DNA of 32,241 nt. Source: Actinomycetes bacterium (lineage in GTDB: Bacteria > Actinomycetota > Acidimicrobiia > Acidimicrobiales > JAKAOS01). Under the pieces are notes generated by a model. It made no database searches. It saw only the letters and a program-made list of their open reading frames with translations, and was not told the origin of the DNA. Shown here one piece after another: positions 982 through 32,077 of this stretch; within the stretch, counting starts at the first letter, position 1, and every line of letters begins with the position of its first letter. The position numbers and the translations under genes were made by a program. The DNA lies in contig JAJYWE010000016.1 in assembly GCA_021791675.1 (NCBI GenBank), forward strand, positions 1 to 32,241. The letters run 5' to 3'.

Positions 982-1626
982 GTGACGGGTCGCGATCTCC
1001 TCGGCGAGCCGGCGGCGGTGCTGGTGCCCGTCAAGTCCTTCGCCAGCGCGAAGCTGCGCCTGGCTCCCGCGCTCGGGGCGGGCGAGCGGGCCCGGCTCGC
1101 CCGGTCGCTCGCGACCGGCGTCGTGCGCGCCGCTTCCCCGCTCCCGGTCGCGGTCGCCTGCGACGACGAGGAAGTCGCCACCTGGGCGGCGGGCGAGGGG
1201 GCGGCGGTCTGCTGGACCCCCGGGCTCGGGCTGAACGGCGCCGTCGCGGCCGGGGTCACGTTCCTCGCCGAGCGGGGGGCGACCCGCGTCGTCGTCGCCC
1301 ACGGAGACCTGCCCTTCGCCACCGGGCTCGCGGCCCTCGCCACCGGCGAGGGCGTGACGCTCGTCCCCGACCGCCACGAACGGGGGACGAACGTCTGTGT
1401 CGTGCCGTCGCGGGCTGGTTTCGCCTTCGCCTACGGCCCGGGGTCCTTCCTCCGCCACCAGGCCGAGGCGGCACGGCTCGGACTAGCCCTGACCGTCGTG
1501 CGGTCGGCGGCGCTCGGCCTCGACGTCGACGAGCCCGAGGACCTCGCCCTCGCGCGGCGACGGAGCTCGGCCGCGCTCCCTGCGGGCACCGGGCACGGAC
1601 GAGGAGCGACCGCTGTCCCGGCCTGA
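982..1626 (+). CDS. fbiD: Phosphoenolpyruvate/2-phospho-L-lactate guanylyltransferase (coenzyme F420 biosynthesis)
   Basis: The 214-residue protein has the layout of the CofC/FbiD family. There is an N-terminal nucleotide-binding strand and loop, VLVPVKSFASAKLRLAP (about residues 13-29). HGDLPF follows (the family's aDLPl metal/nucleotide site), then PDRHERGTNVCVV, YGPGSF and the C-terminal LDVDEPEDLALA. The family couples GTP to 2-phospho-L-lactate or phosphoenolpyruvate to make the guanylylated precursor used by FbiA in cytoplasmic F420 synthesis. GTG 982 is chosen because it begins just before the first conserved strand and follows a -10-like box by six bases. The last 20 residues are a low-complexity tail. 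No other F420 genes are present here; the next gene (deacetylase) begins 16 bp downstream and is probably co-transcribed. Confidence 0.88.
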   Translation: MTGRDLLGEPAAVLVPVKSFASAKLRLAPALGAGERARLARSLATGVVRAASPLPVAVACDDEEVATWAAGEGAAVCWTPGLGLNGAVAAGVTFLAERGATRVVVAHGDLPFATGLAALATGEGVTLVPDRHERGTNVCVVPSRAGFAFAYGPGSFLRHQAEAARLGLALTVVRSAALGLDVDEPEDLALARRRSSAALPAGTGHGRGATAVPA

Positions 1627-1642: not shown

Positions 1643-2437
1643 GTGGCCGAGGAGCTCCGTGGCGGGGTCCCGACGGCGAGCGCGGCGGCTACCGCTCCGG
1701 GGTCGGCCGCCCCGGGCAGCGCCCTCGCGACGCCGGGCTGCGCCCTCGCGATCGGCGCGCACCCCGACGACATCGAGTTCGGCTGCGGCGGGACCCTCGC
1801 CAAGTGGGCCGCCGCGGGCTGTCGGATCGTGCACCTGGTGCTCACCGACGGGTCCAAGGGGTCCTGGGATCCCGAGCAGGACCCGGCGGAGCTGGTGGCC
1901 GCCCGGCGCGAAGAGCAGCGTGCGGCGTCTCGGGCGCTCGGGGGGACGGGTGAGGTCGTCTTCCTGTCCTGGCCCGACGGAGAGCTCGAGGCGGGGCTCC
2001 GCCAACGGGTCCAGGTCTGCTCCTGGATCCGCCGGGTCCGCCCCGACGTGGTCCTCGGCCACGATCCGTGGCGTCGCTACCGGCTCCATCCCGACCATCG
2101 CAACGCGGGCTTCCTCACGACCGACGGCATCGTGGCCGCCCGGGACCCCCACTTCTTCCCCGAGCTCGCGCTGCCCGCCCATCGCCCGGATGCCCTGCTG
2201 CTCTGGGAGGCCGACGAGGCCGACCACGTGGAGGACGTGACCGGCTACGAGGAGGCGAAGCTCGCCGGGATCCTCGCGCACGCCAGCCAGCACCGCTCCA
2301 CCATGGCGATCGAGGAAGGCGACACCGGTGCGCAGCTGGCCGCCTTCCGCAGCCGGCTCCTCGGGCGTCTCGCGGCCTCCGGCAAGCAGGCCGGCGTGGC
2401 ATATGGCGAGGCGTTCAAGCTGATCCAGCCGTTGTAG
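1643..2437 (+). CDS. PIG-L/LmbE-family N-acetyl-sugar deacetylase
   Basis: The 264-residue product carries the family zinc motif AHPDD (His40, Asp42, Asp43) in LAIGAHPDDIEFGCGGTLA, and the downstream partner motif HPDH (His149, Asp151, His152) followed by RNAG. The family uses one zinc ion to remove acetyl groups from N-acetylglucosamine-type substrates; members include MshB, Mca and LmbE-like enzymes. The substrate here cannot be read from sequence. The first 30 residues are alanine-rich and may not all be translated; GTG 1643 is the start nearest fbiD. The last third of the gene (2135-2437) is duplicated at 10710-11012, so this 3' end may have been exchanged by recombination. Confidence 0.85.
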   Translation: MAEELRGGVPTASAAATAPGSAAPGSALATPGCALAIGAHPDDIEFGCGGTLAKWAAAGCRIVHLVLTDGSKGSWDPEQDPAELVAARREEQRAASRALGGTGEVVFLSWPDGELEAGLRQRVQVCSWIRRVRPDVVLGHDPWRRYRLHPDHRNAGFLTTDGIVAARDPHFFPELALPAHRPDALLLWEADEADHVEDVTGYEEAKLAGILAHASQHRSTMAIEEGDTGAQLAAFRSRLLGRLAASGKQAGVAYGEAFKLIQPL

Positions 2438-2446
2438 CCCGTCGCC
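2135..2446 (+). repeat. Direct repeat copy A (3' part of the PIG-L gene)
   Basis: Read base by base, 2135-2446 aligns without gaps to 10710-11021, with 309 of 312 positions identical. The three differences (near 2399, 2404 and 2407) all lie close to the 3' end and are synonymous in the deacetylase frame. Homology stops sharply at both ends. The two copies have the same orientation and are offset by 8,575 bp, so recombination between them would delete or circularise everything between. Confidence 0.95.
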
Positions 2447-2495
2447 CCCCTCCTCCGGCACGCTCGTCGCCGGCGGATGCCAGCTCGGGCCCCGC

Positions 2496-3215
2496 TCAGC
2501 TCGAAGCCTCGATCACGACCTTGGTCGCCGTCAGCGACCCGCCTGGTCCAGTCTCGCTGGACACCCGAACCTTCTCACCGACCTCGAGCGCCGAGGCGGC
2601 CGCGCTGGATTTGCCCTGCCGGTAGGTGGTGGACGAGGTGGTCGTGATGGCTCGGGTCGCCCCGCTCGGCGAACGGAGCGCGAAGCCGGTGCGGCTGAGC
2701 GCAGCCAAGGTGCCTGCGTAAACGAGCGGCAGGAGCACCACCGCCCTGGCCGTCGGCGTCGATGCCCCGGGGACGAGACTGATCCGCACGCGCGCTCCCG
2801 GGCGGAGCGAGGAAGCAGTCAGGTGCTGGTGGCCCTGGCGGTAGGCGGTGGACGGCGTGAGGGCGACCGTGGTCGACCTCCCGTGCGCCTTCACCACCAT
2901 CGTGGTTGCGTCGAGCGACGTCACCATGCCGACCAGCGCGCTCGCGCCGACGCGGTGCGCCCTCACATGGTGCGCCGGGAGGGAGGTCGTCGTGGCCGAG
3001 CTCCCTCCGGAACCGGAGGAACAGGCAGCGAGGAGCGGGGCGAGGAGCGCGAACGTGAGCGCACCCTGCCAGCGGCGGTGGCACCCGAGCGGGCGCCCGC
3101 ACCAGCGGCGTTGCAGGAGGGCGCGCAGCCAGGACCGTCCCCGTGCTGGCGGGTCTGGCGGATCCCCCGGTCCCCCATCCCGCACGTCGCCGCCCCGCCC
3201 TTCGGTCCTCGTCAT
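2496..3215 (-). CDS. Lipoprotein with two DUF5666-like beta repeats
   Basis: The 239-residue product has a long basic N-terminus, a hydrophobic segment and a lipobox ending LLAAC at about residue 65, followed by a Ser/Gly/Thr linker typical of exported lipoproteins. Two related domains follow. Each has a G-x-V-x-S/A-L-x-x-T-x-x-x-V/L strand pair, TTVALTPSTAYRQG or TTTSSTTYRQG, and a GxxVRVS/RIS turn, resembling the DUF5666 pattern. ATG 3215 overlaps the TGA of the MarR gene (ATGA), which fixes an otherwise oddly long signal region. It is the last gene of the efflux operon; a role at the cell surface is inferred from location only. A secreted protein with a similar domain is encoded at 9712-10203. 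Confidence 0.75.
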   Translation of the reverse strand: MTRTEGRGGDVRDGGPGDPPDPPARGRSWLRALLQRRWCGRPLGCHRRWQGALTFALLAPLLAACSSGSGGSSATTTSLPAHHVRAHRVGASALVGMVTSLDATTMVVKAHGRSTTVALTPSTAYRQGHQHLTASSLRPGARVRISLVPGASTPTARAVVLLPLVYAGTLAALSRTGFALRSPSGATRAITTTSSTTYRQGKSSAAASALEVGEKVRVSSETGPGGSLTATKVVIEASS

Positions 3216-3763
3216 CGTTTCGTCCCCTCTTCATCTCGGGCCCCCGACCGGCGGACAGGGGCCACGGCTCGCGGACCCACGGTGCGGTGGACCGCCTCCA
3301 CCAGGCGCCCGAGTGCAGGCAGGGCCGCTTCGATCTGGTCGCGGTCGCCCGGGGAGAGCGTGGCGAGTGCCGTTGCGAGCAGCGCCAGACGCTGGTCTCT
3401 CCACCCGGCAAGCTGGCAGTTCGCGGCGTCGGTGAGGAAGAACCGCACCCCCCGGCGATCCCGCTGGTCCCGGCGGCGCTCGAGGAGGCCCCCCTCGACG
3501 AGATGCGCCGCGACCGTGCTCACGGTGTTCGGGGCCAGGCCGAGCTCGGACGCGACCTCCTGGACCCGCAGCCCCGGGGTGCGGCGGACGGTGTTCAGCA
3601 GCTGGAGGTGGGATCCCGGGAGGGCCTCCATCCCGAGCGGGCGGCCGAGTAGGCGCCTACGGATCACCCGGAAGGTCCGGAAGAGCGCCTCCGCGTCGTC
3701 CGCCAGGAGGTGGAAGGCACTCTGCGGGCTCGGCGCCGCCTGGCCGGCGCGGGAGGTGCCCAT
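3212..3763 (-). CDS. MarR-family transcriptional regulator
   Basis: The 183-residue protein has a MarR layout: an N-terminal dimerisation helix, then a winged helix with LRVQEVASELGLAPNTVSTV as the HTH at about residues 63-82. LVEGGLLERRRDQRDRRGVRFFLTD follows as the wing, with the conserved D-x-R-D-R-R segment, and then C-terminal helices. Its start codon ATG (3763-3761) shares a base with the TGA of the upstream pump gene, and its own stop overlaps the lipoprotein start. It probably controls the operon it belongs to; a palindrome at 8671-8687 in front of the operon is a candidate binding site. Ligand unknown. Confidence 0.9.
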   Translation of the reverse strand: MGTSRAGQAAPSPQSAFHLLADDAEALFRTFRVIRRRLLGRPLGMEALPGSHLQLLNTVRRTPGLRVQEVASELGLAPNTVSTVAAHLVEGGLLERRRDQRDRRGVRFFLTDAANCQLAGWRDQRLALLATALATLSPGDRDQIEAALPALGRLVEAVHRTVGPRAVAPVRRSGARDEEGTKR

Positions 3764-6700
3764 CAGCTGCCCCACTCCGGGCGGAGCACGCCCCGGAGCT
3801 CGGCCGTAGCCGCCGGCACTGGCCCTTCCCCTGCCGCTGCCGCTGCCGCGTCGGCCTTCCCGCCCCGGTTGCGCAGGCGGCGCAGCCTCGCCGCGCCGTC
3901 GTCGACCAGGGTGTAGAGCACGGGTACCACGAGCAGGCTGAGCAGCGTCGAGGAGAGGAGGCCGCCGATGAGCACGGTGCCGACCGGCATGCGCTCGGAC
4001 GCGCCGGACCCGGTCCCGAACGCCAGTGGGAGCATCGCGAAGACCATCGTTGCGGTGGTCATGAGGATCGGCCGGAGCCGGGTCGCGCCCGACTCCATCA
4101 TCGCCGCATCCCTGGCCACCCCCCTGCCCCGCAGCGTCTTCGCATAGTCGATCAGGAGGATCGAGTTCTTCGCCACGAGTCCGATCAGCATGATCATCGC
4201 GATGAGGGCGAAGATCGAGATCGGCAGGTGCGCGAGCCACAGCGCACCGAGCGCCCCGACGACGGCGAGCGGGAGCGCGAAGAGCACCGCGAAGGGCTCG
4301 AGGAGGGACTCGTAGAGCGCACTCATCAGCATGTAGACGAGCACGATCGAGAGCCCGAGCGCTTCGAGGAGGGGCCCGAAAGCCCGCTTCTGCTGCGCCG
4401 ACTGGCCGCCCACCACGAGCGCGTATCCAGTCGGGAGCCCGACGGACCGAGCCGCGCCGAGCAGCGCCGCCGTCGCCGGGCCGGAGTTACCGCTCGGGCT
4501 CGACGCGGACACCGACACCGAGTACTGGCCGTTCGTCTGGGTGATCTGGCCTGGACCGACCGCCTCGGAGAGGCTCGCCACGGCGGAGAGCGGGACCGTG
4601 CCGCGCGCCGTCGGGATCGGGATCGCGGCGAGCTCGGCGGGCGAGAGGCTCGTACCGCCCCCGAGGCTGACCTGGATGGGCTCGGCCGGGGTGGTGGAGG
4701 AGACGACCAGCGGAGGAACGCTCATCCCGCCGAGCGCCGCGGCCACGGCGCTCCCGATGGTGGCGGCCGAGACGCCGAGGTAGGCGGCGGCGGTCTGATC
4801 GACCTGGATCGAGAGCTCCGGCGTCGGGGTCGGCACCGACGTCGAGACCTGCGAGACCGCTGGGTTGCCCCCGAGGCGGGCCGCCACCGCCGTCGCGAGG
4901 CTGTCGAGCGTGGCGAGGTCCGGGCCGACGATGTCGACCGACGCAGCTCGAGCGCCACCGGCGATGAACGGGCTCTGCACGTGCCCGTGAGCGGAGAGCC
5001 CTGGGTAGTGGTGCGCGAGCAGGTCCACCTCCTTGGTGTAGGTGCCGATCGCCGGGCGCGCGCCCCGCGGCGCGAGGTCGAGGGTGAGCTGGCCGATGTT
5101 GTGGGCGGCGCCGGAGCCGGCCCCGTAGCCGGCGGAGAGGAAGACCTGCGTCACCCCGGGCAGGTGCTGGAGGCGCCGGGCGAAGCTGGTGAGGGTCGAC
5201 TGGGCGGTGGCGAGCGGGGTCCCGACCGGCAGCTTCGCATTCACGGTGACCACGCCGTTGTCCTCCGGGGGGACGAAGGTGGTGGGGAGCACCCCCGCGC
5301 GCACGATCGCTACCGAGCCCACAAGCGCGGCCAGCGCCACCCCGAGCACGGATCCGCGGTGGCGCAGCGCCCAGCCGATCACGCGCTGGTAGCGGGCGCG
5401 GAGACGCTCGAAGCCGGCGTCGAAGCGCCGACCGAAGCGCGCTCCGAGCGAGGAGGGGGAGGGGGTCCGCCCGAAGCGGGCGGCCAACATCGGGGTCAGG
5501 GTGAACGAGACCAGGAGGGAGAACAACGTGGCTGCCACGATCGTGAGCCCGAACTCGCGGAACAGCTGGCCCACGTTCCCCGAGACGAATGCCACCGGGG
5601 CGTAGACCACGACGTCGGTGAGGGTGATCGCGACCGCTGCGGCCCCGATCTCGGCGCGCCCGTCGATCGCCGCCTCGGCAGGCTCCTTGCCCATGGCCCG
5701 GTGGCGATGAATGTTCTCGAGGACGACGATCGAGTCGTCGACCAGGATCCCGATGAGCAACGAGAGCGCCATCAGCGAGATCAGGTCGAGGCTGAAGCCG
5801 AGGAAGTACATCACGGCGAAGGTCGACACGAGCGAGACGGGGATAGCCACCATGACGATGAGCGTGTTCGCCAGCCGGTGGAGGAAGGCGGCCAGCACGA
5901 TCGCCGCGAAGAGGATGCCGAGGAAGAGGTCGAGCTCCACGTTCGAAAGTGCCGATCGAACGTAGCTCGTGATGTCGCCGGTGATCGTCGTCGAGACGCC
6001 CGGTGGCAGCTGCGGCGCAAGCTTGGCGAGCTCGGCGCGCACCTCGTCGTCCACGGTGAGGGAGTTCGCGGTGGAAGAGGCCGTGAGGACGAGGCCCACC
6101 GCCGGCTTGCCGTTCAGCGTGGCCGCGGACTGGGCCTTCGCGAGCCCCTGCGAGACCGTCGCCACCTGGGAGAGGAGCACCGCCCCGCCGGGCCGGGAGG
6201 CGATCGGGAGCGACTCGAGCGCCGCCACGGAGGTGTAGCCGCCGTGGGTCCTGGCGAGCAGCTCCTGGCTCCCGACGACCGTGACGCCGCCGGTGATCGC
6301 CACGTTCTCGGCCTTCATCGCCGCCGCGAGCTGGGTCATGGACACGCCGTAGGCCGCCAGGCGAGCCGCGGAGACGTCCACGGTCACCACGGGTGCGCGC
6401 CCACCAACAATCGTCACCTGGGCCACACCGGAGAGCTCCTGGAGGCTCGGAGCCACGACGTTCGTTGCCAGCTCGTAGAGCTGCGAGGATGCGAGCGGCC
6501 CGGAGATCGCCACGTCCATCATCGGGAGTGCCGAGGGGTTGGCCTTGATGATGGAGGGCGGCGTGGCGGTCGAGGGGAGCCCCCTCGCGACCCGGGCGAG
6601 CGCCACCGAGACGCTGGCCGCCGCCTGGTCGATGTTGGTACCGCCGGCGAACTGCAGCGCGACGACGCTGCGCCCAGCACCGGAGGTGCCCACCATCGAC

Positions 6701-6948
6701 ACCACCCCGGACTCCGAGCTGAGCGCCTTCTCGACCGGGGTGGTGATCGTCTCGGAGACTGTCGAGGCGCTCGCGCCCGCGTCGCCGATCACCACGCGGA
6801 TGAACGGGAAGTTCACGTTCGGGAGGCGCCGCACGGGCAGCTTGGTGAAGGCGACCGCCCCCGCGACCACCAAGAACCCGAGGATCATCACGATCGTCAC
6901 CGGCCTGCGAATGGAGAGCGCCGTGAGGCCCGACCCGACACGGCTCAT
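3763..6948 (-). CDS. RND-family (HAE1/AcrB-like) proton-driven efflux pump
   Basis: The 1061 residues match the usual RND length. The N-terminus (LSIRRPVTIVMILGFLVV) forms TM1, followed by the porter motif RLPNVNFPFIRV. TM4 carries VDDSIVVLENI with Asp404 and Asp405, equivalent to the AcrB proton-relay aspartates. TM10 carries GLVAKNSILLIDYAK with Lys927, the third relay residue, and the second large loop lies between TM7 and TM8. The catalytic residues are therefore in place. It would export lipophilic or cationic compounds, with the adaptor encoded just upstream (4-bp overlap ATGA at 6945-6948). No outer-membrane TolC-like gene is present. Substrate not predictable. Confidence 0.93.
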   Translation of the reverse strand: MSRVGSGLTALSIRRPVTIVMILGFLVVAGAVAFTKLPVRRLPNVNFPFIRVVIGDAGASASTVSETITTPVEKALSSESGVVSMVGTSGAGRSVVALQFAGGTNIDQAAASVSVALARVARGLPSTATPPSIIKANPSALPMMDVAISGPLASSQLYELATNVVAPSLQELSGVAQVTIVGGRAPVVTVDVSAARLAAYGVSMTQLAAAMKAENVAITGGVTVVGSQELLARTHGGYTSVAALESLPIASRPGGAVLLSQVATVSQGLAKAQSAATLNGKPAVGLVLTASSTANSLTVDDEVRAELAKLAPQLPPGVSTTITGDITSYVRSALSNVELDLFLGILFAAIVLAAFLHRLANTLIVMVAIPVSLVSTFAVMYFLGFSLDLISLMALSLLIGILVDDSIVVLENIHRHRAMGKEPAEAAIDGRAEIGAAAVAITLTDVVVYAPVAFVSGNVGQLFREFGLTIVAATLFSLLVSFTLTPMLAARFGRTPSPSSLGARFGRRFDAGFERLRARYQRVIGWALRHRGSVLGVALAALVGSVAIVRAGVLPTTFVPPEDNGVVTVNAKLPVGTPLATAQSTLTSFARRLQHLPGVTQVFLSAGYGAGSGAAHNIGQLTLDLAPRGARPAIGTYTKEVDLLAHHYPGLSAHGHVQSPFIAGGARAASVDIVGPDLATLDSLATAVAARLGGNPAVSQVSTSVPTPTPELSIQVDQTAAAYLGVSAATIGSAVAAALGGMSVPPLVVSSTTPAEPIQVSLGGGTSLSPAELAAIPIPTARGTVPLSAVASLSEAVGPGQITQTNGQYSVSVSASSPSGNSGPATAALLGAARSVGLPTGYALVVGGQSAQQKRAFGPLLEALGLSIVLVYMLMSALYESLLEPFAVLFALPLAVVGALGALWLAHLPISIFALIAMIMLIGLVAKNSILLIDYAKTLRGRGVARDAAMMESGATRLRPILMTTATMVFAMLPLAFGTGSGASERMPVGTVLIGGLLSSTLLSLLVVPVLYTLVDDGAARLRRLRNRGGKADAAAAAAGEGPVPAATAELRGVLRPEWGS

Positions 6949-8558
6949 GCCCCCTTGCCCCCCTTCGCCTTCCCGGCACCGCCCGTGGCGGCGCTGCCCG
7001 CGCCAAGCCCGGCGCCCGGCGCGGCGGCCTTGGCTCCGCTCGTCGTGGGAGAAGGCGCCGTCAGCAACCCGCCCACCGAGGACCCGGTGACCGAGGAGGG
7101 CACCGCCACAGTCCCGCTGACCCGGACCAGGTCCCCTGGGCCGAGGTACGTCTGGCCCGAGACCACCACCGTCGTGCCCGGCGCCAGCCCGCTCACTTCG
7201 GTGGTCGTCCCGTCCGAGATCGAGGGGCGCACGCTGACGAGGGTGATCGTCCTCCCTCCCCGGGCAGCGGAGCCCGCGGCACCTCCCTTCCTCGCCTTCC
7301 TCGCCTTGTGCTTGGCGCCCTTGTGCTTGTGGGTGTGCCGGTGCGGTCGCGTCGTGGAGGCGGTCGCGCTCGCCGCGCCGGCCTTGGCAGTCCCTGGCGG
7401 CCCGACCACGAACACCTGTGGGGTCCCGTTGATCGTCACGATGGCGCTTGCCGGGACCAGGACCGCGTTCGCAGCCCGCGCCGTCACCACCGAGACAACG
7501 GCCGCCTCACCGGGATGCAGCCACGGCGGGTTCGAGGTCGGCGTCAACGTGACCTCGAAGGTCAGCGCGCTCGGGTCAGCCACGGGCGAGAGTGCGGTGA
7601 CTCGCGCCGGGAGCGTCGTGCCGCCCCCGAGGATCGAGAGAGTCGCGGGATCCCCGGTACGCAGGAGTGGCAGGTCCGCCTGGCTCACGGGCGCCTGCAC
7701 GCTGAGGGCTGCGCCGTCGAGGGTGAGGACGGTGGTCCCCGCCCCGACAACCTCGCCGACGGTGGCGGTGACCGAGGCGACCGTGCCCGCGAACGGTGCC
7801 CGCAGCGACTCCTCCGCCACGTTCGCCTCCACCACTGCCTCCGCAGCCTGCGCCTGGGTGACCGCGCTCACGAGGGGCTGGAGGGTCGCGGCGCTCGGCG
7901 GGGCGCTGGCAGCGGCAGCCTCTGCCTCCGCGAGGTTGAGGGCGGCCTGCGCCGATGCCACCGCCGCTCCTGCCGCGCTGACATCAGTGCCGCTCCCCGG
8001 TGACTTCGCCTGGGTGGTGGTAGTCCCCGACTGTGCCGGGCTCGCCTGGTGGGCCTGGCGGGCGGCGAGGACCGCTTGCTGGTAGGCCTCCTCGGCCGCA
8101 GCGAGGCTGGCCTGGGCCTTCGCGACCCCGTCCTGCGCCACCGCGAGCGCCTGGGCGGTCGGTGGCACCTCGGCAGCGGCCAGCTTCGCCTGCGCGGTCG
8201 CCACCGCAGCCCTCGCCTCGGCGAGCTGGGCCTGGAGGACGGGGTTCGCGAGGCTTACTAGCACCTGCCCCGCCCGGACCGACTGGCCTGCCACGACGTC
8301 GATCGCTGCAACACGACCCGCGACCCCCGGCGCAAGCGGGAGGCTCGATGTCGCCGCGACGGCCCCCGAGAGCGAGAGCGCGGAGATCGCGGTCCCGGCT
8401 GTCGCGCGCGCCACCTCCACCGCCGTGACGACGCCGTCCTTTCCCTCGTGGCGGGTGCCCTTGGGCGGCGAGCCGCCCGTGACGGCGAAGGCGGTGCCGG
8501 CGGCGGCGAGGGCCACGCCACTCCCGATCGCGAGCACCTTCGTGGCGCGGCCCCTCAT
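6945..8558 (-). CDS. HlyD/AcrA-like efflux adaptor (membrane fusion protein) with His/Lys-rich insert
   Basis: The 537-residue protein begins with a single membrane anchor (VLAIGSGVALAAAGTAFAV). A biotinyl/lipoyl half-motif LAPGVAGRVAAIDVVAGQSV comes next. A long alanine/glutamine coiled-coil region (AQLAEARAAVATAQAKLAAA onward) follows, then a beta-barrel section with VPASAIVTINGTPQVFVV, typical of adaptors partnered with RND pumps. It is longer than most adaptors, mainly because of a histidine- and lysine-rich stretch (HRHTHKHKGAKHKARKARKGG, roughly residues 400-425) and Ser/Gly/Ala-rich ends. ATG 8558 heads the operon. A weak G-rich sequence precedes it. It should link the pump to the cell envelope. 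Confidence 0.88.
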   Translation of the reverse strand: MRGRATKVLAIGSGVALAAAGTAFAVTGGSPPKGTRHEGKDGVVTAVEVARATAGTAISALSLSGAVAATSSLPLAPGVAGRVAAIDVVAGQSVRAGQVLVSLANPVLQAQLAEARAAVATAQAKLAAAEVPPTAQALAVAQDGVAKAQASLAAAEEAYQQAVLAARQAHQASPAQSGTTTTQAKSPGSGTDVSAAGAAVASAQAALNLAEAEAAAASAPPSAATLQPLVSAVTQAQAAEAVVEANVAEESLRAPFAGTVASVTATVGEVVGAGTTVLTLDGAALSVQAPVSQADLPLLRTGDPATLSILGGGTTLPARVTALSPVADPSALTFEVTLTPTSNPPWLHPGEAAVVSVVTARAANAVLVPASAIVTINGTPQVFVVGPPGTAKAGAASATASTTRPHRHTHKHKGAKHKARKARKGGAAGSAARGGRTITLVSVRPSISDGTTTEVSGLAPGTTVVVSGQTYLGPGDLVRVSGTVAVPSSVTGSSVGGLLTAPSPTTSGAKAAAPGAGLGAGSAATGGAGKAKGGKGA

Positions 8559-8670
8559 CGGAGACCCCCATGGCCTGCGGGCGAGCGGAGCAGACGCCTC
8601 GCCCGACGATGCTGCATGCTCCCGCTCGCCATGCTCGCCCTGCCTCCGATCTTCCCCCGCCGTCCAGAAT

Positions 8671-8687
8671 CTCTGTCGATGACAGAG
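8671..8687. promoter_or_regulatory. Palindrome, candidate MarR operator of the efflux operon
   Basis: CTCTGTC-GAT-GACAGAG is a perfect inverted repeat with 7-bp arms and a 3-bp centre, 113-129 bp upstream of the adaptor ATG. Size and symmetry suit a MarR-family dimer site, and the operon encodes a MarR protein. The assignment is by position only. Confidence 0.45.
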
Positions 8688-8754
8688 CTATTGTCCTGGT
8701 CCCGGATGATCGGGAGTTCGTCGAGATGTGAGGGCTCTGTGCGGGCCGCGGACT

Positions 8755-8802
8755 GCTCGCGCGCCACTCTCGAGCCACGCTCGTGGCTCGTCGTGCGCGA
8801 GC
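8755..8802 (-). terminator. Two-part hairpin after the 8870-9322 gene
   Basis: An inner stem CGAGCCAC / GTGGCTCG (8 bp, loop GCTC, 8771-8790) is enclosed by an outer stem GCTCGCGC / GCGCGAGC (8755-8762 with 8795-8802). It begins about 67 bp past the stop of the minus-strand gene. There is no U-tract, so it may be a GC-rich terminator or a processing/stability structure. Confidence 0.4.
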
Positions 8803-8869
8803 GGAGAGCTCCCTCTCAGGACGCTGCGATGGGTCCGGGCAACCAGCCCCGGGGAGAGCAGAGCCTCGC

Positions 8870-9322
8870 CTACCCGTCGAGTCGCTCGGCCACCCGGTGG
8901 AGGAGTGCACGGACCGTCGACTCGGCCACCCTATGGAGCAGGAGCCGATCGGCTTCCCGGCCGAGGATGCCCCCGGGAGGGTCGTAACAACCGCGGACCA
9001 CGAGCTCGGCTGCCGACAGTCCGAACGGAGCGACCTCCAGATCGCCCTCGAGACCGGGAAAGACACCGCCACGGGAGGTCGACTGCCACCGGAAGCCGAT
9101 GAGCGTCCGGTCACTTAGCCGTCGGATCGGGCTGAGCTCGATCGAGACCGTCCGCTGCAGCATGCGGGGCAGCCCGGCCGGGCCGACCTTGGCGCGGAGC
9201 TCTTCGGCCGCCGCGCACGCACAGGCGGTCGAGTCGCCCAGGATCGATGCCGCGTCGGCTTCGATCGCTCGTACCGCGTCCGGATAGGCCACGTGGATCA
9301 CGAGAAAGTCCTGGACGAACAT
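8870..9322 (-). CDS. Hypothetical protein, possibly SRPBCC-like
   Basis: The 150-residue product has no recognised family name. The second half alternates strands and turns (RTLIGFRWQSTSRGG, VFPGLEGDLEVAPFG, AELVVRGCYDPPGG) and ends in a long helix with two HRVAE segments. That arrangement resembles small SRPBCC (START-like) ligand-binding proteins; this is an inference from the pattern. A CACAAA-like cluster (TACACAAAEE, with two cysteines) lies near residue 35. ATG 9322 is chosen because GAGGGAG lies 8 bases upstream. The frame stays open far upstream through an 8-bp tandem array, so a longer form cannot be excluded. It is transcribed towards the efflux operon but is separated from it by a hairpin. 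Confidence 0.6.
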   Translation of the reverse strand: MFVQDFLVIHVAYPDAVRAIEADAASILGDSTACACAAAEELRAKVGPAGLPRMLQRTVSIELSPIRRLSDRTLIGFRWQSTSRGGVFPGLEGDLEVAPFGLSAAELVVRGCYDPPGGILGREADRLLLHRVAESTVRALLHRVAERLDG

Positions 9323-9352
9323 GCAACAATCTCCCTCGACCCGTCGGCTTCC

Positions 9353-9445
9353 CTCGACTCCTCGACTCCTCGACTCCTCGACTCCTCGACTCCTCGACTC
9401 CTCGACTCCTCGACCCGTTGACCCGTTGGCCCGTTGGCCCGTTGG
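9353..9445. repeat. Two adjoining 8-bp tandem arrays
   Basis: The unit CTCGACTC occurs seven times perfectly from 9353 to 9408, followed by one variant (CTCGACCC). From 9414 the unit changes to CCCGTTGA and then CCCGTTGG three times, to 9445. The array starts 31 bp upstream of the ATG of the minus-strand gene at 9322. Because 8 is not a multiple of 3, copy-number change would shift any reading frame crossing it, or change promoter spacing. Confidence 0.95.
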
Positions 9446-9711
9446 CCCCAGCGTCGCCGCAGTCACGAGCCGAGCGCCAGGGGGTCGAAGGTCCCTTCCT
9501 CGCCAGCGCCAGGCCGTCCGGCCCGATGTCGTTCCGGGGCCAGCCCGCGTTCGGTTCCCGAGGGGAGTGGCTCGCCACCCCCCGCTCTCCTCCCAGCGGT
9601 CCGTGTCGGACGGCGGTGGTACCACCCCCGTGGCCGAGTCGACTCACCGGTCGGGCGGTGGCAGTCCAGGGCGGGCCAGAGCCGCGGGACGCAACGGCGC
9701 GCGCGGCGCGC
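9446..9711. other. Intergenic sequence between two small minus-strand genes
   Basis: No supported gene. The region should hold the promoter of the 9322 gene if it is not co-transcribed with the gene at 9712-10203. I see no clear promoter boxes; only GC-rich runs near 9690-9711. Confidence 0.5.
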
Positions 9712-10203
9712 TCAGGCGCTGGAGGCGGTCTCTCGTATCGTGGTCGCCCACCACATGTCGTTCTCCACCGGGGCGCCGTGCACCACCACCACCTCTCCCA
9801 CCGGGATCGAGCTCGCGACGTCGGTGGCGATCCCCTTCCCGATGCCTCGGACCGTGAAGACGTGCGAGCGGTTCGTGAGCGCGAACGTGAAGTTCGCTCC
9901 GTCTGCCTGTTCGATCACGAGCTGACCATGACCGAGCACTCCACCGGTCGCAGAGACTCCGACGACCTTGCCGGCCAGGCCGGTGCGGATCAACCGGTCG
10001 GCTCGTCTGGCCGCGAGCGCAGGGCGCCGCCTCGCGCGCCGCTCCACCTTCGTGGGCGCGGGCGTCGTCCTGTTCGTCACCCCACGGCTCGCCACGGGAC
10101 CCGTCGTCGGGCTCGCGGCGACGGCACTGTCCACCGCGAAGCCGATCGTCCCCGCGGCGAGCAGCCCCGCCGTCAGCGTTGCAACGGCCGTCTTCGACAC
10201 CAT
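9712..10203 (-). CDS. Secreted protein with a DUF5666-like domain
   Basis: The 163-residue product begins with a clear signal peptide (MVSKTAVATLTAGLLAAG, then a small-residue cleavage region ending AVAA). An Arg/Ala-rich linker follows, then a domain with GLAGKVVGVSATGG, QLVIEQADGANFTFALTN, a VFTVRGIGKG segment and EVVVVHGAPVENDMWWATTI. This looks like one beta unit of the type seen twice in the lipoprotein at 2496-3215. ATG 10203 is preceded by a strong GGGAGGAG at 7-8 bases. The product is probably exported to the cell surface or medium; function unknown. Confidence 0.7.
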   Translation of the reverse strand: MVSKTAVATLTAGLLAAGTIGFAVDSAVAASPTTGPVASRGVTNRTTPAPTKVERRARRRPALAARRADRLIRTGLAGKVVGVSATGGVLGHGQLVIEQADGANFTFALTNRSHVFTVRGIGKGIATDVASSIPVGEVVVVHGAPVENDMWWATTIRETASSA

Positions 10204-10709
10204 GGATCTGCTCCTCCCTCTCGTGCTCCGCTGTCGGGTCAGCGGTAGCGGGAGCGGTCCCATCCTCGAGCTCCCAGCGCCTCGGAGGAGCGGCGCGCTC
10301 CGGGGCGAGCGGGAACCGGGCCACCCTCGAGCTGTCGAGCGAGCCCCGACCCCGACCCGCGCTCGTGGGCCGCGGTGCGCGATGCTGACGTCACACGTCC
10401 GGGAGAGGGGCCGACATGGCTTGGTGGAGGAGGGCTGCGAAGCGAGTGATCCGGCTCCTCCACCAGCGCCGGTCGTCCCGGCACCGCATGGTGCCCGTGC
10501 CCGTGCCCGTGGACAGGACTGGGTCCTTCCCTCGCTGCCTGCCGCCGACCATGGTGGCACTCGCGAGGGGGAAGGCGGTAGCTCCCCGATCGCGGCGCGC
10601 GTCCGGGGCCGTCTCCTCGCGGCGCAGCCGTGCGCCCTGGTTGCACGGTCCGCAGCGCGCGATCGCGCCGTAGGGTCCCGCGAACGGACTCCGGTCCCGG
10701 GAGCTCGCC
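10204..10709. other. 506-bp stretch without a supported gene
   Basis: The first ~25 bases carry the ribosome-binding site of the minus-strand gene. The 8-bp palindrome TGACGTCA lies at 10386-10393. A possible 85-codon plus-strand frame (10416-10673) has an Arg-rich composition with no recognisable motif, and I do not support it. The stretch ends abruptly where the duplicated PIG-L fragment begins. Confidence 0.55.
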
Positions 10710-11012
10710 GCCGCCCGGGACCCCCACTTCTTCCCCGAGCTCGCGCTGCCCGCCCATCGCCCGGATGCCCTGCTGCTCTGGGAGGCCGACGAGGCCGACC
10801 ACGTGGAGGACGTGACCGGCTACGAGGAGGCGAAGCTCGCCGGGATCCTCGCGCACGCCAGCCAGCACCGCTCCACCATGGCGATCGAGGAAGGCGACAC
10901 CGGTGCGCAGCTGGCCGCCTTCCGCAGCCGGCTCCTCGGGCGTCTCGCGGCCTCCGGCAAGCAGGCCGGCGTCGCATACGGAGAGGCGTTCAAGCTGATC
11001 CAGCCGTTGTAG
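10710..11012 (+). pseudogene. 5'-truncated copy of the PIG-L deacetylase gene (direct repeat copy B)
   Basis: Bases 10710-11021 repeat 2135-2446 with three differences, all synonymous in the deacetylase frame. The copied part encodes the last ~100 residues of the enzyme through its stop codon (11010-11012). It lacks the HPDD and HPDH zinc motifs, so it cannot be a working deacetylase. No start codon or ribosome-binding site precedes it; the sequence just upstream (ending GAGCTCGCC) is unrelated. It ends 35 bp before the stop of the convergent DeoR gene. The absence of amino-acid changes suggests recent origin, or exchange with an intact gene. Confidence 0.92.
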
Positions 11013-11056
11013 CCCGTCGCCGGGGCGCTCGGGCCGCCCTGCCCAGCCCTCTCCGC

Positions 11057-11848
11057 TCAGCCCTCCCCGCCCAGGGGCTGCGCGACGAGGACGCGGCGGA
11101 TCTCCCGGGCGAGGACCTGGCGCGCACGGTCGGGAATGCCCCAGTCGGTGACCAGGGTGCCGACCCGATCCAGCCCGGCGATCCGGCCGAGCCCGACCGT
11201 CCCCCACTTGGTGTGGTCCGCGAGCACGATCACCTGGCCGGCGTGGTCCAGCAGGGCCCGGTCGGTCTCGGCCTCGGCGAGGTTCGGGGTGGTGAGGCCG
11301 GCCTCCTGGTCCAGCCCGTGGACGCCGAGGAAGAGCAGGTCCACGTAGAGGGAGCGGATGGTCGCATCCGCGAGGGGGCCGACCAGGGAGCGGGAAGGGG
11401 TCGGCGAGCCGCCCGTCACGACGACGCGCCCGGCGGGCCCCGCGCCGTGGAGCCGCTCGGCGACCTCGAGGGAGTTCGTCACCACGGTGACGTCGCTGCG
11501 GTGCCGGAGCAGCCCGGCGAGCGTCCACGTCGTGGTCCCCCCGGAGAGGGCTACCGACGAGCCGGGCGGGACCATCGAAGCCGCCACGGCCGCGATGGCC
11601 TCCTTCTCGGCCTGCTGGAGGCCCTGCTTCACGTCGAAGCCGGGCTCCTCCGCACTCCGCCACGGCGCGAGCGCACCGCCGTGGACCTTCTCGACGACGC
11701 CCTGGCGCGCGAGCACGTCGAGGTCACGACGGATGGTCATGTCCGAGACCTGGAACTGCGACGCCAGCTCGGTGACGCGGACCACCTCACGCTGGCGCAC
11801 CTGCTCGGCGATCCGCCGGCGGCGCTGCTCCGCGAGGACCGTGCTCAC
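11057..11848 (-). CDS. DeoR-family sugar-operon repressor
   Basis: The 263-residue protein has the DeoR layout. The N-terminal winged helix is AEQRRRRIAEQVRQREVVRV, then LASQFQVSDMTIRRDLDVLA with the family signature region, then GVVEKVHGGALAP. The C-terminal sugar-phosphate sensor has SVALSGGTTTWTLA, VVTNSLEVAERL, VVVTGG, LFLGVHGLD and VLADHTKWG. The family senses phosphorylated sugars in the cytoplasm. GTG 11848 follows GGAGGAGAG by about 6 bases and overlaps the beta-galactosidase stop (GTGA). As the last gene of the galactoside operon, it probably represses that operon; a dyad at 17634-17700 is the best candidate operator. Confidence 0.9.
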   Translation of the reverse strand: MSTVLAEQRRRRIAEQVRQREVVRVTELASQFQVSDMTIRRDLDVLARQGVVEKVHGGALAPWRSAEEPGFDVKQGLQQAEKEAIAAVAASMVPPGSSVALSGGTTTWTLAGLLRHRSDVTVVTNSLEVAERLHGAGPAGRVVVTGGSPTPSRSLVGPLADATIRSLYVDLLFLGVHGLDQEAGLTTPNLAEAETDRALLDHAGQVIVLADHTKWGTVGLGRIAGLDRVGTLVTDWGIPDRARQVLAREIRRVLVAQPLGGEG

Positions 11849-13953
11849 GACTGCTCTCCTCCCCCGGCGTCGACGACCGCGGCCCCGTGGCCCGGGAGGC
11901 GGAGGACCACCCGCCCCCCGGCGGCCTCCTCGAGCTCGCCGCCCGTCACCAGCGTCGGCGAGCCCGCCAGCTCGACCTCGACCGGCGCTGCGTCGGTGTT
12001 CACGTAGAAGCAAAACCGGCCCCGCCTGCTCACGCCAACCGACCCCGGCGCCTCTGCGAGGGGTCGCACCCCGGCACCCTGCCAGGCGCGGGCGAGAACC
12101 GCCTCGAGCGTCGGGGCGTCGAGCCCGCATCCGACGTAGAGGGCCTGCCCCGTGCCCCACGAGCGGGTCGTGACGGCGGGCATGCCGACGAGCGGCCCGG
12201 TCGCGTACCGGGCGAGGACCTCGGCGCCACGCAGGTGGATGACCTCCTGCCAGCCGGACGCGCTCCCAGCGGACCCGGCCAGCGGACCGGTGAGGGCGAC
12301 GACCTCCCCGTCCGCGAGCGGCGCGAGCTCCTCGACCTCGAGCCCGAGCACCTCGCGGAACGCGGCCGGATACGGGCCGGCCGGGACGTGGTCGTCCTGG
12401 TCCACGATGCCGGAGAACGGGCCGACGACGAGGGTTCCCCCGGTCGCGACGAAGTCGGCGAGGCGCTTCGCGTGCTCGGCGGCGACGAGGTAGAGGTTCG
12501 GCGCGAGCAGGACCCGGTACCGACCGAGCGGACCGGCCGGCGAGACGAAGTCCACCGGGACGTGGCTCCGGTAGAGCGGTTCGTACCAGGACTCGAGGAT
12601 CGCCCGGAGCTCGAGCGTCGAGTCGGGATGGGACGGCTGCTCGAGCGCCCACCAGCTGGACCAGTCGAGGAGGATCGCCACCGAGGCGTCGACGCTCGTC
12701 CCCACGACCTCGCGGAGCCGCCCGAGCTCCTCGCCGAGGGCCGTCACCTCCTCGAAGGTCCGGCTCGCCGCCCCGGCATGGGGCACCATCGCGCTGTGGA
12801 ACTTCTCCGCCCCCGCCCGCGCGGCTCGCCACTGGAAGAAGCAGATTCCATCCGCGCCCCGTCCGACGGCCTGGAGGCTGAGGGAGCGCATCATCCCGGG
12901 TGGCTTCCGCGCGTTGCGGGGCCGCCAGTTCACCGCCGAAGGCGCCTGCTCCATCAGCATCCACGGTGCCCCGTCCCCGAGGGAGCGCATGAGGTCGCCG
13001 ACCATCGCGGCTCGCACGTAGGCGAGCGGGTCCGCCGGGTCGGGATAGGAGTCGTCCGCGACGATGTCGACGTGCGGGGCGAAGCGCCAGTAGTCCACGG
13101 GACGGAACAGACCCATGAAGTTCGTCGTGACCGGCACGGTAGGCGTGAGCGACTCGAGCACCTGGCGCTCGGCGAGGTAACAGCCGAGCAGCTCGTCGGA
13201 GGAGAAGCGCGCGAAGTCGAGCACCTGGGTCGGATTGGAAAGGGTGGGGGCGAGCCGTGGCGGCAGGATCTCGTCGAAGGAGTGGTACGCCTGTGACCAG
13301 AAGGCTGTCCCCCACGCCTGGTTGAGCGCCGCGACGTCCCCGTAGCGATCCGCGAGCCAGGCGCGAAAGCGCGCCGCCGAGACGTCGCAGTAGCAGGCGG
13401 CGACGTGGCAGCCGTACTCGTTGCCCACGTGCCACATCTCGAGCGCCGGATGGTCGCCGTAGCGGCGCGCCAGCGCCTCGACGAGCGTGAGCGCGGCCTC
13501 CCGGTAGACCGGCGAGCTGGGACAGTAGTGCTGGCGCGCCCCGGGCCAGAGGGTCGCGCCCTCCCGGGTCACCGGGAGCATCTCGGGGTGCGCGCGGCTG
13601 AGCCACGCCGGCGGCGAGGCGGTGGCCGTGGCCAGGTCGGCGGCGATCCCGGCGCGGGCCAGCCGGTCCAGCACGTCGTCGAGCCAGGCCCAGGAGTGCA
13701 CGCCCGGGGCCGGCTCCAGCAGCGCCCACGAGAACACCCCCACCGTCACGAGGTTGACCTGCGCCCTCCGCATGAGCGCGATGTCCTCGTCCCAGACCTC
13801 GGGCCCCCACTGCTCGGGGTTCCAGTCCCCGCCGTAGAGGATGCCGCGCCGCGCGGTCGGGAGCGAGCGGTCGAGGGCCCCGCGGTGCGCGCCTCGATTC
13901 GACCCAGCCGACGAGGACCGGTCACCTGCGGACCCGCCGGCTGCGGCGCCCAC
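11845..13953 (-). CDS. GH42 beta-galactosidase
   Basis: The ~702-residue enzyme shows the GH42 TIM barrel opening GGDWNPEQWG. The acid/base glutamate lies in HVGNEYG (Glu179 counting from the start used here) and the nucleophile in LMEQAPSAVNW (Glu335). Cysteines in HYCP, YGCH and ACYC match the zinc site described in thermophile GH42 structures. A trimerisation/glutamine-amidotransferase-like domain follows, with the GGTLVVGPFSGIVDQDDH segment. There is no signal peptide, so it acts in the cytoplasm on imported beta-galactosides. The start is uncertain. No ATG is in frame before the barrel; GTG 13953 lies in a short repeated AGAAAGGSVGAAAGGSAG-like stretch, 32 bp after the permease stop. The true N-terminus may be up to ~30 residues shorter. 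Confidence 0.9.
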   Translation of the reverse strand: MGAAAGGSAGDRSSSAGSNRGAHRGALDRSLPTARRGILYGGDWNPEQWGPEVWDEDIALMRRAQVNLVTVGVFSWALLEPAPGVHSWAWLDDVLDRLARAGIAADLATATASPPAWLSRAHPEMLPVTREGATLWPGARQHYCPSSPVYREAALTLVEALARRYGDHPALEMWHVGNEYGCHVAACYCDVSAARFRAWLADRYGDVAALNQAWGTAFWSQAYHSFDEILPPRLAPTLSNPTQVLDFARFSSDELLGCYLAERQVLESLTPTVPVTTNFMGLFRPVDYWRFAPHVDIVADDSYPDPADPLAYVRAAMVGDLMRSLGDGAPWMLMEQAPSAVNWRPRNARKPPGMMRSLSLQAVGRGADGICFFQWRAARAGAEKFHSAMVPHAGAASRTFEEVTALGEELGRLREVVGTSVDASVAILLDWSSWWALEQPSHPDSTLELRAILESWYEPLYRSHVPVDFVSPAGPLGRYRVLLAPNLYLVAAEHAKRLADFVATGGTLVVGPFSGIVDQDDHVPAGPYPAAFREVLGLEVEELAPLADGEVVALTGPLAGSAGSASGWQEVIHLRGAEVLARYATGPLVGMPAVTTRSWGTGQALYVGCGLDAPTLEAVLARAWQGAGVRPLAEAPGSVGVSRRGRFCFYVNTDAAPVEVELAGSPTLVTGGELEEAAGGRVVLRLPGHGAAVVDAGGGEQS

Positions 13954-20071: not shown

Positions 20072-20624
20072 CCGAGGCCTCCGCGAGGCCGAGGACGACG
20101 ACCGTGGTCTGCGCGAGCTCTGCCGCAGTCGGTGCCCGGGCGTAGTCCCACTGTCCGGGGAGGACCTGTTCGGAGATCGCGCGCAGCGCAACCAGCTTCT
20201 CGTCGGGATCGCGGAGCGCCTGCGCCTCGCCGTAGATCATCGCCGCCCGGTAGTTGGCCGCCTCGTTGAACACCGAACGGGCGAGCACGATCCCGTCGAG
20301 ATGCGTGACGGTGACACAGACCGGGTTACCCCGGGCGCGTCGCAAGCTCTGGCTGGCCACCGATCCGTGGACGTAGAGCCGATCACCTGCGCGCCCGTAG
20401 GTCGTCGGTACGACCATCGGCCAGCCGTCCACGACGACACCGAGGTGGCAGAGGAACCCGGCGTCGAGGACCGCCTCCAGCGCAGCGCGGTCGTGGCTCC
20501 CCTGCTCCGGGAAGCGCCGAAGGCGCGTCCGCTCGCTCGGGGCTGCGAGCCCCCCCTCCGCCCGCTCGCTCGGGGCTGCGAGCCCCCCCTCCGCCCGCTC
20601 GCTCGGCGATTCCTCTCCCGTCAC
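19869..20624 (-). CDS. Pyridoxamine-5'-phosphate-oxidase-like FMN-binding protein
   Basis: The 251-residue protein matches the flavin-nucleotide-binding PPOX-like group. It has a helix ALEAVLDAGFLCHLGVVVDG, the strand WPMVVPTTYGRAGDRLYVHG, then SVASQSLRRARGNPVCVTVTH, DGIVLARSVFNEAANYRAAM and a C-terminal WAGELPARMVFGPARPAPGL segment. Relatives bind FMN or a related deazaflavin and act in flavin redox chemistry or haem/bilin handling; the substrate here is unknown. GTG 20624 is 9 bp downstream of the Rrf2 stop, so the two are probably co-transcribed. The N-terminus has a duplicated 11-residue unit (SERAEGGLAAP twice, then SER) from a 33-bp tandem repeat, and may be unstructured. Confidence 0.85.
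   Translation of the reverse strand: MTGEESPSERAEGGLAAPSERAEGGLAAPSERTRLRRFPEQGSHDRAALEAVLDAGFLCHLGVVVDGWPMVVPTTYGRAGDRLYVHGSVASQSLRRARGNPVCVTVTHLDGIVLARSVFNEAANYRAAMIYGEAQALRDPDEKLVALRAISEQVLPGQWDYARAPTAAELAQTTVVVLGLAEASVKVRAGPPDDGDGPDGLLSLWAGELPARMVFGPARPAPGLDSSIALPPHVRDWLDHPTPPPGHDRLG
20531..20606. repeat. 33-bp tandem repeat with internal hairpin, inside the PPOX-family gene
   Basis: Two exact 33-bp copies (20531-20563, 20564-20596) plus a 10-bp partial copy. Each full copy contains GGGGCT-GCG-AGCCCC, a perfect 6-bp stem with a 3-base loop. Being a multiple of 3, copy-number change keeps the frame. On the mRNA the two stems sit just after the start codon. Confidence 0.9.
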
Positions 20625-20633
20625 CCCGTCACC

Positions 20634-21776
20634 CTAGGTCACAGGCACCGGGCCGGGGCCCGCCGCGAGCCCGCTCGGGCGGGACCGGTCACCCTCCGAC
20701 ACGGGTGTCGCTCCCGCCGACCTCCGCCGCCGGCCCGAGCTCGCACGCTCCACGAGGCGTGCGCGTCGGGGTGGGCCACCCCTCGCAGTCCCGTCCAGGG
20801 CGAGGCTGCGGAGGAACGCGCGCGCCCCCACCCGCCCGAGGCGCGACACCAGCTCGAGGTCGGCGAGCTCGGCGTCGGGCGACGCGCCCTTTCCCCTGGA
20901 GGGCGGGCGGAGGAGGCCCGCGAGGCTGAGCTCGCTCCCCCCGTCGGGCCCAGCCAGGACGGTCAGGGTCAGATCGGCATGCGACGACGACCCGTCGGCA
21001 CCCGTCGCCTCCCAGGCAAGCTCGAACCTTCGCGGGGGCGCAGCGACCAGTAGGGGTCGGGATCGCGCCCCGCCGGGAACGCGCAACGTTGCGGCCGACG
21101 CGCCCTCGACCCCGACCGGGTGGACCGCGGCCGAGACCTCGACCGGCGCCCACGGCGGCGTGCGCGGGCGGGTGCGGAGCCGGACGGCGTCGGCTTCCCG
21201 GTAGGCCCGCGCAACGGCGCGACCGACGCGTTCGGGCTGCGCCACCCACGCGGCGAGCGCGTCGGGATCGCTCTCCAGCTGGATCCGGTCGGACAGCGCG
21301 ATGCTCGTCGGAATCGGTCGGTGGGAGTCGAGAGGGCGACCGCTACTCGAGCCCGCGAGCGCCTGGTCGCGCGCCGCAAGCGTCGCAAGGCTGGTGGTGG
21401 CGAGTGCGTCGCGTAGCGCGTCCGCCGCCGAGCGCCACGTCTCGTGGAGCGGGCAGACCGAGTCCCAGCGGCACGGCCCATCGCCGAGCGCGCAGCGCGC
21501 AGCGCGCAGCGGACCCTCTGCCGCCTCCACGACGTCGAGGAGGGTGATCGCCTCGGGCGCGCGGGCGAGGCGGTAGCCGCCGTCCCGGCCCGAACGCGAC
21601 TCGGCGAGCCCCGCTCGCACGAGGACCGTCACGATCTGGGGAGCGAAGGTGAGCGGCACACCCATCTCGGCAACGATCTCGCGGACCTTGCGCCACTCGC
21701 CCGTGGGCCAGGCCCTGGCCAGGGCCAGCGCCGAGCGCATCACGTAGTCCCCCCGCTTGGAAAGGCTCATGTCCAT
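20634..21776 (-). CDS. Rrf2-family iron-sulfur regulator with long C-terminal extension (paralogue 1)
   Basis: Of 380 residues, the first ~75 form the Rrf2 winged helix (LSKRGDYVMRSALALA; VPLTFAPQIVTVLVRAGLAE; SGRDGGYRLAR). Cys95, Cys102 and Cys108 in RCALGDGPCRWDSVCPLHE (C-x6-C-x5-C) are positioned to hold an iron-sulfur cluster, as in IscR, NsrR and RsrR. After residue ~150 comes an extension of ~230 residues absent from ordinary Rrf2 proteins (140-170 residues). It includes FELAWEATGADG, SSSHADLTLTVLAG and a terminal helix, SRPBCC-like by pattern. The start ATG 21776 has a -10 box exactly 6 bases upstream (leaderless). It diverges from the polyferredoxin operon and precedes the PPOX-family gene by 9 bp. 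Confidence 0.85.
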   Translation of the reverse strand: MDMSLSKRGDYVMRSALALARAWPTGEWRKVREIVAEMGVPLTFAPQIVTVLVRAGLAESRSGRDGGYRLARAPEAITLLDVVEAAEGPLRAARCALGDGPCRWDSVCPLHETWRSAADALRDALATTSLATLAARDQALAGSSSGRPLDSHRPIPTSIALSDRIQLESDPDALAAWVAQPERVGRAVARAYREADAVRLRTRPRTPPWAPVEVSAAVHPVGVEGASAATLRVPGGARSRPLLVAAPPRRFELAWEATGADGSSSHADLTLTVLAGPDGGSELSLAGLLRPPSRGKGASPDAELADLELVSRLGRVGARAFLRSLALDGTARGGPPRRARLVERASSGRRRRSAGATPVSEGDRSRPSGLAAGPGPVPVT

Positions 21777-23522: not shown

Positions 23523-23531
23523 GGAGCGACC

Positions 23532-25736: not shown

Positions 25737-26848
25737 GACTCGGCATCGGCTCCAGACGAGGCGCCTTCGAGTGCTGCGGCAACCTGACGGAGAAAGCGGC
25801 GCACGACGCGACGCGCCTCGGCCTCGACCGTCTCGAGTGACCTCGAGGGAGGAAGCCCGACCCGCTGGTGCCACTGGGCATCGAGACGGAGCTCGCTTCG
25901 CTCACCGTCCAGCTCGTGCACCGTGAGGCCGCCCTCGAGACGACTTCCCCGCCCAGGCACCCCAAGCCGCCAGCCGAGGAGGAACCGAGCGCGTTCGGGA
26001 GCTGCTCCCGGCGCCGCCTCGTCCGCTGCCGCCTCCCCTGCTGCCCCGTCCGCTGCCGCCGCGCCTGCGGTGGCGACGGGGCGGCGGGCGGTCGAGCTCG
26101 CGACCGCGCCGCCTCCGAGCACGGGAGTGTCGGGGGTACCGAGTGGGATCGGAACCACGCTCGCGTCCAGTACGGCAGCGAACGGCGCGTCGGCTGGCCT
26201 TCCCCCGTCGTCGCGTGCCTGCTCTCCCGGGTCCCTCGCTGGACGCCAGGCGCCGCGGAGCGAGGGGGCGATCGCCTCGGCCACGAGCGCCGCGATCGGG
26301 GGGCGGCCGAGGCCGAGCGCAGCGCTCGCCACCTCGGCCCCGCACTCCACCTGGATCCGATCGACGAGGAGGAACGAGCCGAGCTCGGCTCGGTGGGAGT
26401 CGGCCGGCACGGCGTAGGTGCCCGCCTCGAGCGCGGCGTCTCGCGAGGCCAGCTCGGCCAGCGTCGTCCGGGACAAGAGCTCCCGCAACGCCGCGGTGGC
26501 CGCCGTCCAGGTCTCGTGGAGCGGGCAGACGTTCTCCCAGCGGCAGGGACCCTCCCCGAGCGCGCAGCGCTCCGATCGCAGCGGGCCCTCGCCCGCCTCG
26601 ATCACCTCGAGCACGCTGACCTCGGAGGGCGGCCGGCTCAGCCGGTAGCCGCCGGTCCGGCCCGCCCGCGAGCTCGCGAGGCCCGCACGGACGAGGTCGG
26701 CGAGGATCTGGGAGGCGAAGGTCTGCGGGACGTCGGTCTCCTCCACGACCTCCCGGATCTTCCGCCAGCTCGCGGTGTCGTAGGCCCGAGCCAGCGAGAT
26801 CGCCGACCTCACGACGTAGTCACCGCGTTTGGAGAGCGTCAGGTCCAC
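25733..26848 (-). CDS. Rrf2-family iron-sulfur regulator with long C-terminal extension (paralogue 2)
   Basis: The 371-residue protein aligns without gaps to paralogue 1 over the first ~110 residues (LTLSKRGDYVVRSAISLARA; TFASQILADLVRAGLASSRAG), with cysteines at the same positions 95, 102 and 108 (RCALGEGPCRWENVCPLHE). The extension diverges more. A Gly/Ala-rich linker precedes FLLGWRLGVPGRG, LEGGLTVHELDGERSELRLD and a C-terminal helix ETVEAEARRVVRRFLRQV, again SRPBCC-like by pattern. GTG 26848 matches the paralogue's ATG position. Its stop overlaps that of the electron-transfer fusion gene tail to tail. It may respond to the same signal as paralogue 1, or control other genes. Confidence 0.85.
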   Translation of the reverse strand: MDLTLSKRGDYVVRSAISLARAYDTASWRKIREVVEETDVPQTFASQILADLVRAGLASSRAGRTGGYRLSRPPSEVSVLEVIEAGEGPLRSERCALGEGPCRWENVCPLHETWTAATAALRELLSRTTLAELASRDAALEAGTYAVPADSHRAELGSFLLVDRIQVECGAEVASAALGLGRPPIAALVAEAIAPSLRGAWRPARDPGEQARDDGGRPADAPFAAVLDASVVPIPLGTPDTPVLGGGAVASSTARRPVATAGAAAADGAAGEAAADEAAPGAAPERARFLLGWRLGVPGRGSRLEGGLTVHELDGERSELRLDAQWHQRVGLPPSRSLETVEAEARRVVRRFLRQVAAALEGASSGADAES

Positions 26849-26967
26849 CGACGCCCACCGCCCGGCCGGGGTCGAGTCCCAAAGCGCCCCTTCGGGCCGT
26901 TCATGACCCCAGGTGTAGCCGCTGGCTCCTCGTTCAGCGGCCGTTCCACCATGGCGCGGCCGGGGGC

Positions 26968-31919: not shown

Positions 31920-32002
31920 CGCAGCCCGCCGTCCACGGCGCGACGGTACCGAGGGGCGCCCCCCGATGGCAGGGGTAGGACCCCGCGCGCGCCGCTCGTT
32001 GA

Positions 32003-32062: not shown

Positions 32063-32077
32063 GAGCGGTCGGCTCGT

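Follow-up and report, generated by a model that had tools for sequence, protein, structure and literature searches.

We describe a locus in the genome of an uncultured actinobacterium at which an efflux block lies between two same-strand copies of the end of a conserved PIG-L deacetylase gene. The best explanation, which we hold tentatively, is an insertion-duplication scar formed when DNA that carried a PIG-L gene end and the adjoining efflux block was integrated through homology on one side and through an illegitimate junction on the other. The arrangement is real in the assembly and ordinary in kind. The window, i.e., the whole stretch of DNA that was analyzed, comprises the first 32,241 bases of a contig of 49,336 bases (C137) that has 100-N gaps at 32242-32341 and 36545-36644. 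It belongs to a draft MAG (3.1 Mb in 149 contigs, 91% complete) among whose named relatives Acidimicrobiia and other actinobacterial MAGs are closest; the nearest comparison genomes are at the family level, and the presence/absence comparison covered family and order. The features that matter here are the following:

982-1626, plus strand: CofC (F420 guanylyltransferase; Pfam CofC 3.9e-20, TIGR03552 over cut-off), adjoining PIG-L upstream in most relatives
1643-2437, plus strand: intact PIG-L family deacetylase gene, BshB-like (Pfam PIG-L 3.5e-28; 120.7 bits against TIGR04001, below the equivalog cut-off of 182.5)
2135-2446, plus strand: repeat copy 1, the 3' third of the intact PIG-L gene and 9 bp past its stop codon
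2496-3215, minus strand: DUF5666 protein, a member of the conserved efflux operon (Pfam 4.5e-14)
3212-4240, minus strand: frame holding the MarR regulator (Pfam MarR_2 1.7e-11), kept in G163
3763-6948, minus strand: RND permease (Pfam ACR_tran 4.2e-240)
6945-8558, minus strand: HlyD/RND membrane-fusion adaptor (TIGR01730 over cut-off)
8870-9322, minus strand: 150-aa small gene of a family without assigned function (34/198 genomes of the order)
9712-10203, minus strand: 163-aa small protein with a signal-peptide-like start by eye (5/198 genomes of the order, its own included)
10710-11021, plus strand: repeat copy 2, a stranded PIG-L 3' end lacking the 5' part of the gene
11057-11863 (start approximate), minus strand: DeoR-family regulator (Pfam DeoRC 1.1e-42 and HTH_DeoR)
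29142-32240, minus strand: TrwC-type relaxase (Pfam TrwC 8.3e-57), a synteny anchor common to relatives at the far end of a variable interval

When the PIG-L gene was compared with the rest of the window by BLASTN, positions 10710-11021 matched over 312 bp with 99.04% identity (309/312; E 4.5e-162). Together with a comparison of the edges, this confirms the preliminary description of a sharply bounded repeat whose two copies lie on the same strand 8,575 bp apart. The left edge is abrupt and falls at an arbitrary point inside the gene, with identity collapsing left of 2135. On the right, the repeat runs 9 bp beyond the PIG-L stop codon, with identity collapsing right of 2446. The first 263 bp are identical in both copies, and the three mismatches at 2398 (G/C), 2404 (T/C), and 2407 (C/A) span 10 bp near the right end, all of them synonymous and at third codon positions. 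In simulations, clustering within 10 bp had a P of ~0.002 and the placement of all three in the last 50 bp a P of ~0.004, both being values for three sites framed after these had been seen; a random substitution is synonymous with a probability of 0.25, which gives ~0.016 for three out of three, again post hoc and on three sites.

A search of this whole genome found just these two full copies of the repeat, and left of copy 2 matches to the missing 5' part of PIG-L, decayed or not, were at chance level. Because ~196 kb of other sequence sampled from this genome gave no comparable direct repeat (none of at least 60 bp, bar 127-bp overlaps at N gaps), the repeat far exceeds what chance would give. 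In viral contigs, an exact 30-mer taken from it had no match. Since the mismatches are all synonymous, a crossover within the 263-bp core would remove the block with no change to the protein; performed in silico, this crossover removed the block and left the same 264-residue PIG-L protein, so the earlier expectation that recombination between the copies would leave an intact deacetylase gene held.

The interval between the copies contains the MarR, RND, adaptor, and two small genes listed in the preliminary description; the lipoprotein listed with them was not separately identified and may be the DUF5666 protein at 2496-3215. The order adaptor-RND-(MarR)-DUF5666 is kept in relatives, the DUF5666 gene adjoining RND in 10 of the 12 relative loci fetched, and the true start of MarR is probably near 3760. 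With an E-value limit of 1e-100, 14 of 198 genomes of the order have a match to the RND permease, this genome counted; the best other identity is 81% (in another family) and 71% within the same family, and the best matches listed for the block against plasmids were 66-67% over part of the RND gene. The 150-aa small gene has a second homologue in the same genome, on C114, and a tandem array of the 8-mer CCTCGACT lies between the two small genes (window 9352-9415). A second HlyD-type adaptor gene is found on the same contig as the efflux block (C137 39697-41121; L105 9697-11121). Base composition, which had been proposed for a comparison of the interval with its surroundings, does not set it apart: Against a background that was drawn, like that for the repeats, from less than 200 kb of genome stretches, the tetranucleotides of the efflux block were the most genome-typical among all pieces compared, and a foreign composition was rejected.

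The CofC-PIG-L pair is nearly universal among relatives. Downstream of PIG-L, these carry an HU-like gene, an MDMPI-domain gene, or others, and in many of them TraG, TrwC relaxase, and WYL come in that order past PIG-L, the names HU and WYL being taken in relatives from sequence reading rather than from a scan of families. None of 86 other relative loci had a second PIG-L end past PIG-L at the DNA and protein level, the efflux operon was absent from beside PIG-L in all 12 efflux loci fetched from relatives, and in no relative examined did the efflux block or the DeoR/GH42/ABC cluster come after PIG-L, with one locus (L035) showing distant ABC permease matches only. Since neither side follows PIG-L in relatives, both the efflux block and the DeoR/GH42/ABC side are lineage-specific as judged from these comparisons, and the relatives give no order of arrival. 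For the history proposed in the preliminary description, comparison at the family and order level thus shows that the arrangement is absent from the relatives compared but does not prove its direction.

C137 is colinear with the relatives around a much longer variable interval. Beyond copy 2, the first gene is the DeoR regulator, followed by GH42 and ABC sugar genes, and far downstream of PIG-L come TrwC and a WYL gene (43.4-45.2 kb of C137; named from sequence reading, no family scan), and the two ends of the contig therefore stand in the expected order. Within the window, two Rrf2-type regulators (20634-21776 and 25733-27490; 71% DNA identity over 300 bp) bracket an iron-sulphur protein gene pair (21894-25736), and two 33-bp tandem units with a GC-rich palindrome-like stretch occupy 20526-20591. 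TrwC-type relaxases downstream of CofC-PIG-L occur in several families (L033, L045, L052, L056, L058, L082, L091, and L107), commonly preceded by a TraG-like coupling-protein gene and followed by a WYL-like gene, and such conjugation-type genes sit in a conserved chromosomal neighborhood across families of the order.

Several properties of the repeat are those of an insertion-duplication: The direct repeat is a part of the target, one copy lies inside the intact gene, one edge is arbitrary, and the rest of the target is missing beside copy 2. An incoming fragment from a related strain would have carried a PIG-L 3' end and, behind it, the efflux block and would have recombined homologously within the resident PIG-L 3' end. 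Its far end would have been joined illegitimately, either after circularization of the fragment and then by a single crossover or by being joined straight to the resident gene. The intact PIG-L gene would have taken over the incoming 3' end, and the resident end would have been displaced 8.6 kb downstream as the stranded copy 2. The clustered synonymous differences, confined to one tail, fit two functional alleles with a core homogenized around the crossover, or both cores being resident sequence, and a right edge past the stop codon would be the natural divergence point of two downstream contexts.

What was observed is the repeat with its edges, the clustering and synonymy of the differences, a protein left identical by in silico excision, and the lack of this arrangement in relatives; the direction of the event, its donor, and the entry route are what we infer. 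The donor was likely a close relative because the block is compositionally native. Against an insertion stands that the efflux block shows no compositional sign of distant origin; in addition, the genome, at 91% completeness, yielded neither ComEC nor Ku, so that transformation and end-joining are without direct support. A literature search on competence or mobile elements in Acidimicrobiia returned nothing useful.

An assembly artefact or strain chimera, which we consider unlikely, would arise if a PIG-L-efflux strain and a PIG-L-DeoR strain had the gene end in common and the assembler linked the efflux contig at its end to this shared node. The genome is a draft MAG with 149 contigs and 100-N gaps, and exact 127-bp overlaps across two of these gaps suggest that a de Bruijn assembler was run at k=127. 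The overlap flanking the first gap pairs window 32115-32241 with C137 32342-32468 (L105), and the same is seen in L152; these overlaps are an assembler k-mer signature, not biology. The identical 263-bp core is longer than this k, and placement of the copies therefore depends on read pairs. The synonymous differences also fit two strains, and an identical or similar graph would result from tandem copies, from a strain chimera, or from a block-free chromosome accompanied by a free 8.6-kb circle. However, the junction lies inside 32,241 gap-free bases, an abrupt edge is not normally created by a k=127 graph, the flanking PIG-L and TrwC/WYL genes stand in the order of the relatives, and the ~196 kb of sampled sequence held no second unexplained repeat pair.

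Slightly less probable still is an intragenomic tandem duplication that started inside PIG-L, after which most of the second copy was lost and a gene end was left before DeoR. Such a history would not require foreign DNA and would agree with the native composition of the block and with ComEC and Ku not having been found, but it requires two independent breakpoints, the second of which would happen to fall 9 bp past the stop codon, and it leaves the clustering and synonymy of the three differences unexplained though copy 2 is nonfunctional as a gene. The preliminary description had placed this duplication and loss next to an inserted unit carrying a replacement gene end. The latter fits better because the differences are clustered rightward and synonymous, as expected if the two tails came from two functional alleles, and because the repeat stops where the gene does but starts at an arbitrary point within it, although not in the form of a classical integrating element, as the contig has no integrase and no att-like core was definable.

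Mobile elements that integrate at gene ends bring an insert that restores the 3' end of the gene, and the layout resembles such an integration. A site-specific element that used the PIG-L 3' end as attachment site and restored the gene end is nonetheless very improbable here: The earlier observation that no integrase is present extends to all of C137, the PF00589/PF07508 matches of the genome are all on other contigs, and no att-like core was definable in the repeat, which at 312 bp is much longer than usual att cores. With a second PIG-L end in 0 of 86 relatives, the site is not reused with att repeats, and tRNA genes as integration site were found neither in the window nor near PIG-L in the relatives scanned. 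A composite transposon was rejected, both ends being a PIG-L gene fragment and transposase being absent among the frames scanned.

Under the insertion-duplication that we favor, RecA recombination between the copies could, we infer, later lose or multiply the block. It is highly doubtful that the block goes further and acts as a reversible copy-number unit, in which RecA crossover between the 312-bp repeats would drop or multiply the pump operon with the PIG-L protein unchanged, the population would be mixed for pump dosage, and the stranded gene end would be maintained for this purpose. If the insertion-duplication is real, the locus is a recent scar, still readable, of gene gain at the strain level in an uncultured lineage, where a pump operon was added beside a conserved gene without breaking it and in a form that recombination can delete or amplify. 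Layouts of this kind, when seen in draft MAGs, call for long-read confirmation.

Among known systems, homology-facilitated illegitimate recombination as seen in S. pneumoniae, A. baylyi, and P. stutzeri likewise combines one homologous with one illegitimate junction. In its classical form, recipient DNA is deleted and the illegitimate junction has 3-10 bp of microhomology, whereas part of the target is duplicated here; the bases next to the left edge gave short GC-rich matches only, in a check made without the donor continuation. When linear DNA with homology at one end integrated in E. coli, most products were partial target duplications of 109-950 bp, explained by circularization with some end sequence being lost and by a single crossover (PMC3240628). 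Our locus resembles this Campbell-type insertion-duplication in its intact gene, its insert, and a same-strand partial duplicate of the target that measures a few hundred bp and has one edge at an arbitrary point, but it is natural, unselected, and 8.6 kb in size, has strain-level differences in one tail, and comes from a donor and an event that were not observed. Stranded 3' ends have also been proposed to result from homology-anchored insertion at V. cholerae T6SS arrays and at Rhs loci (PMC5361080). As with the stranded ends and orphan immunity genes there, a homology-anchored incoming module would push the resident gene end downstream; those loci involve effector/immunity modules and repeated events, and ours a conserved deacetylase gene and a single event. 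The operon itself shares its gene order with the RND-adaptor-DUF5666 operons fetched from relatives elsewhere in the order, but unlike them, it alone adjoins PIG-L and is bracketed by repeats.
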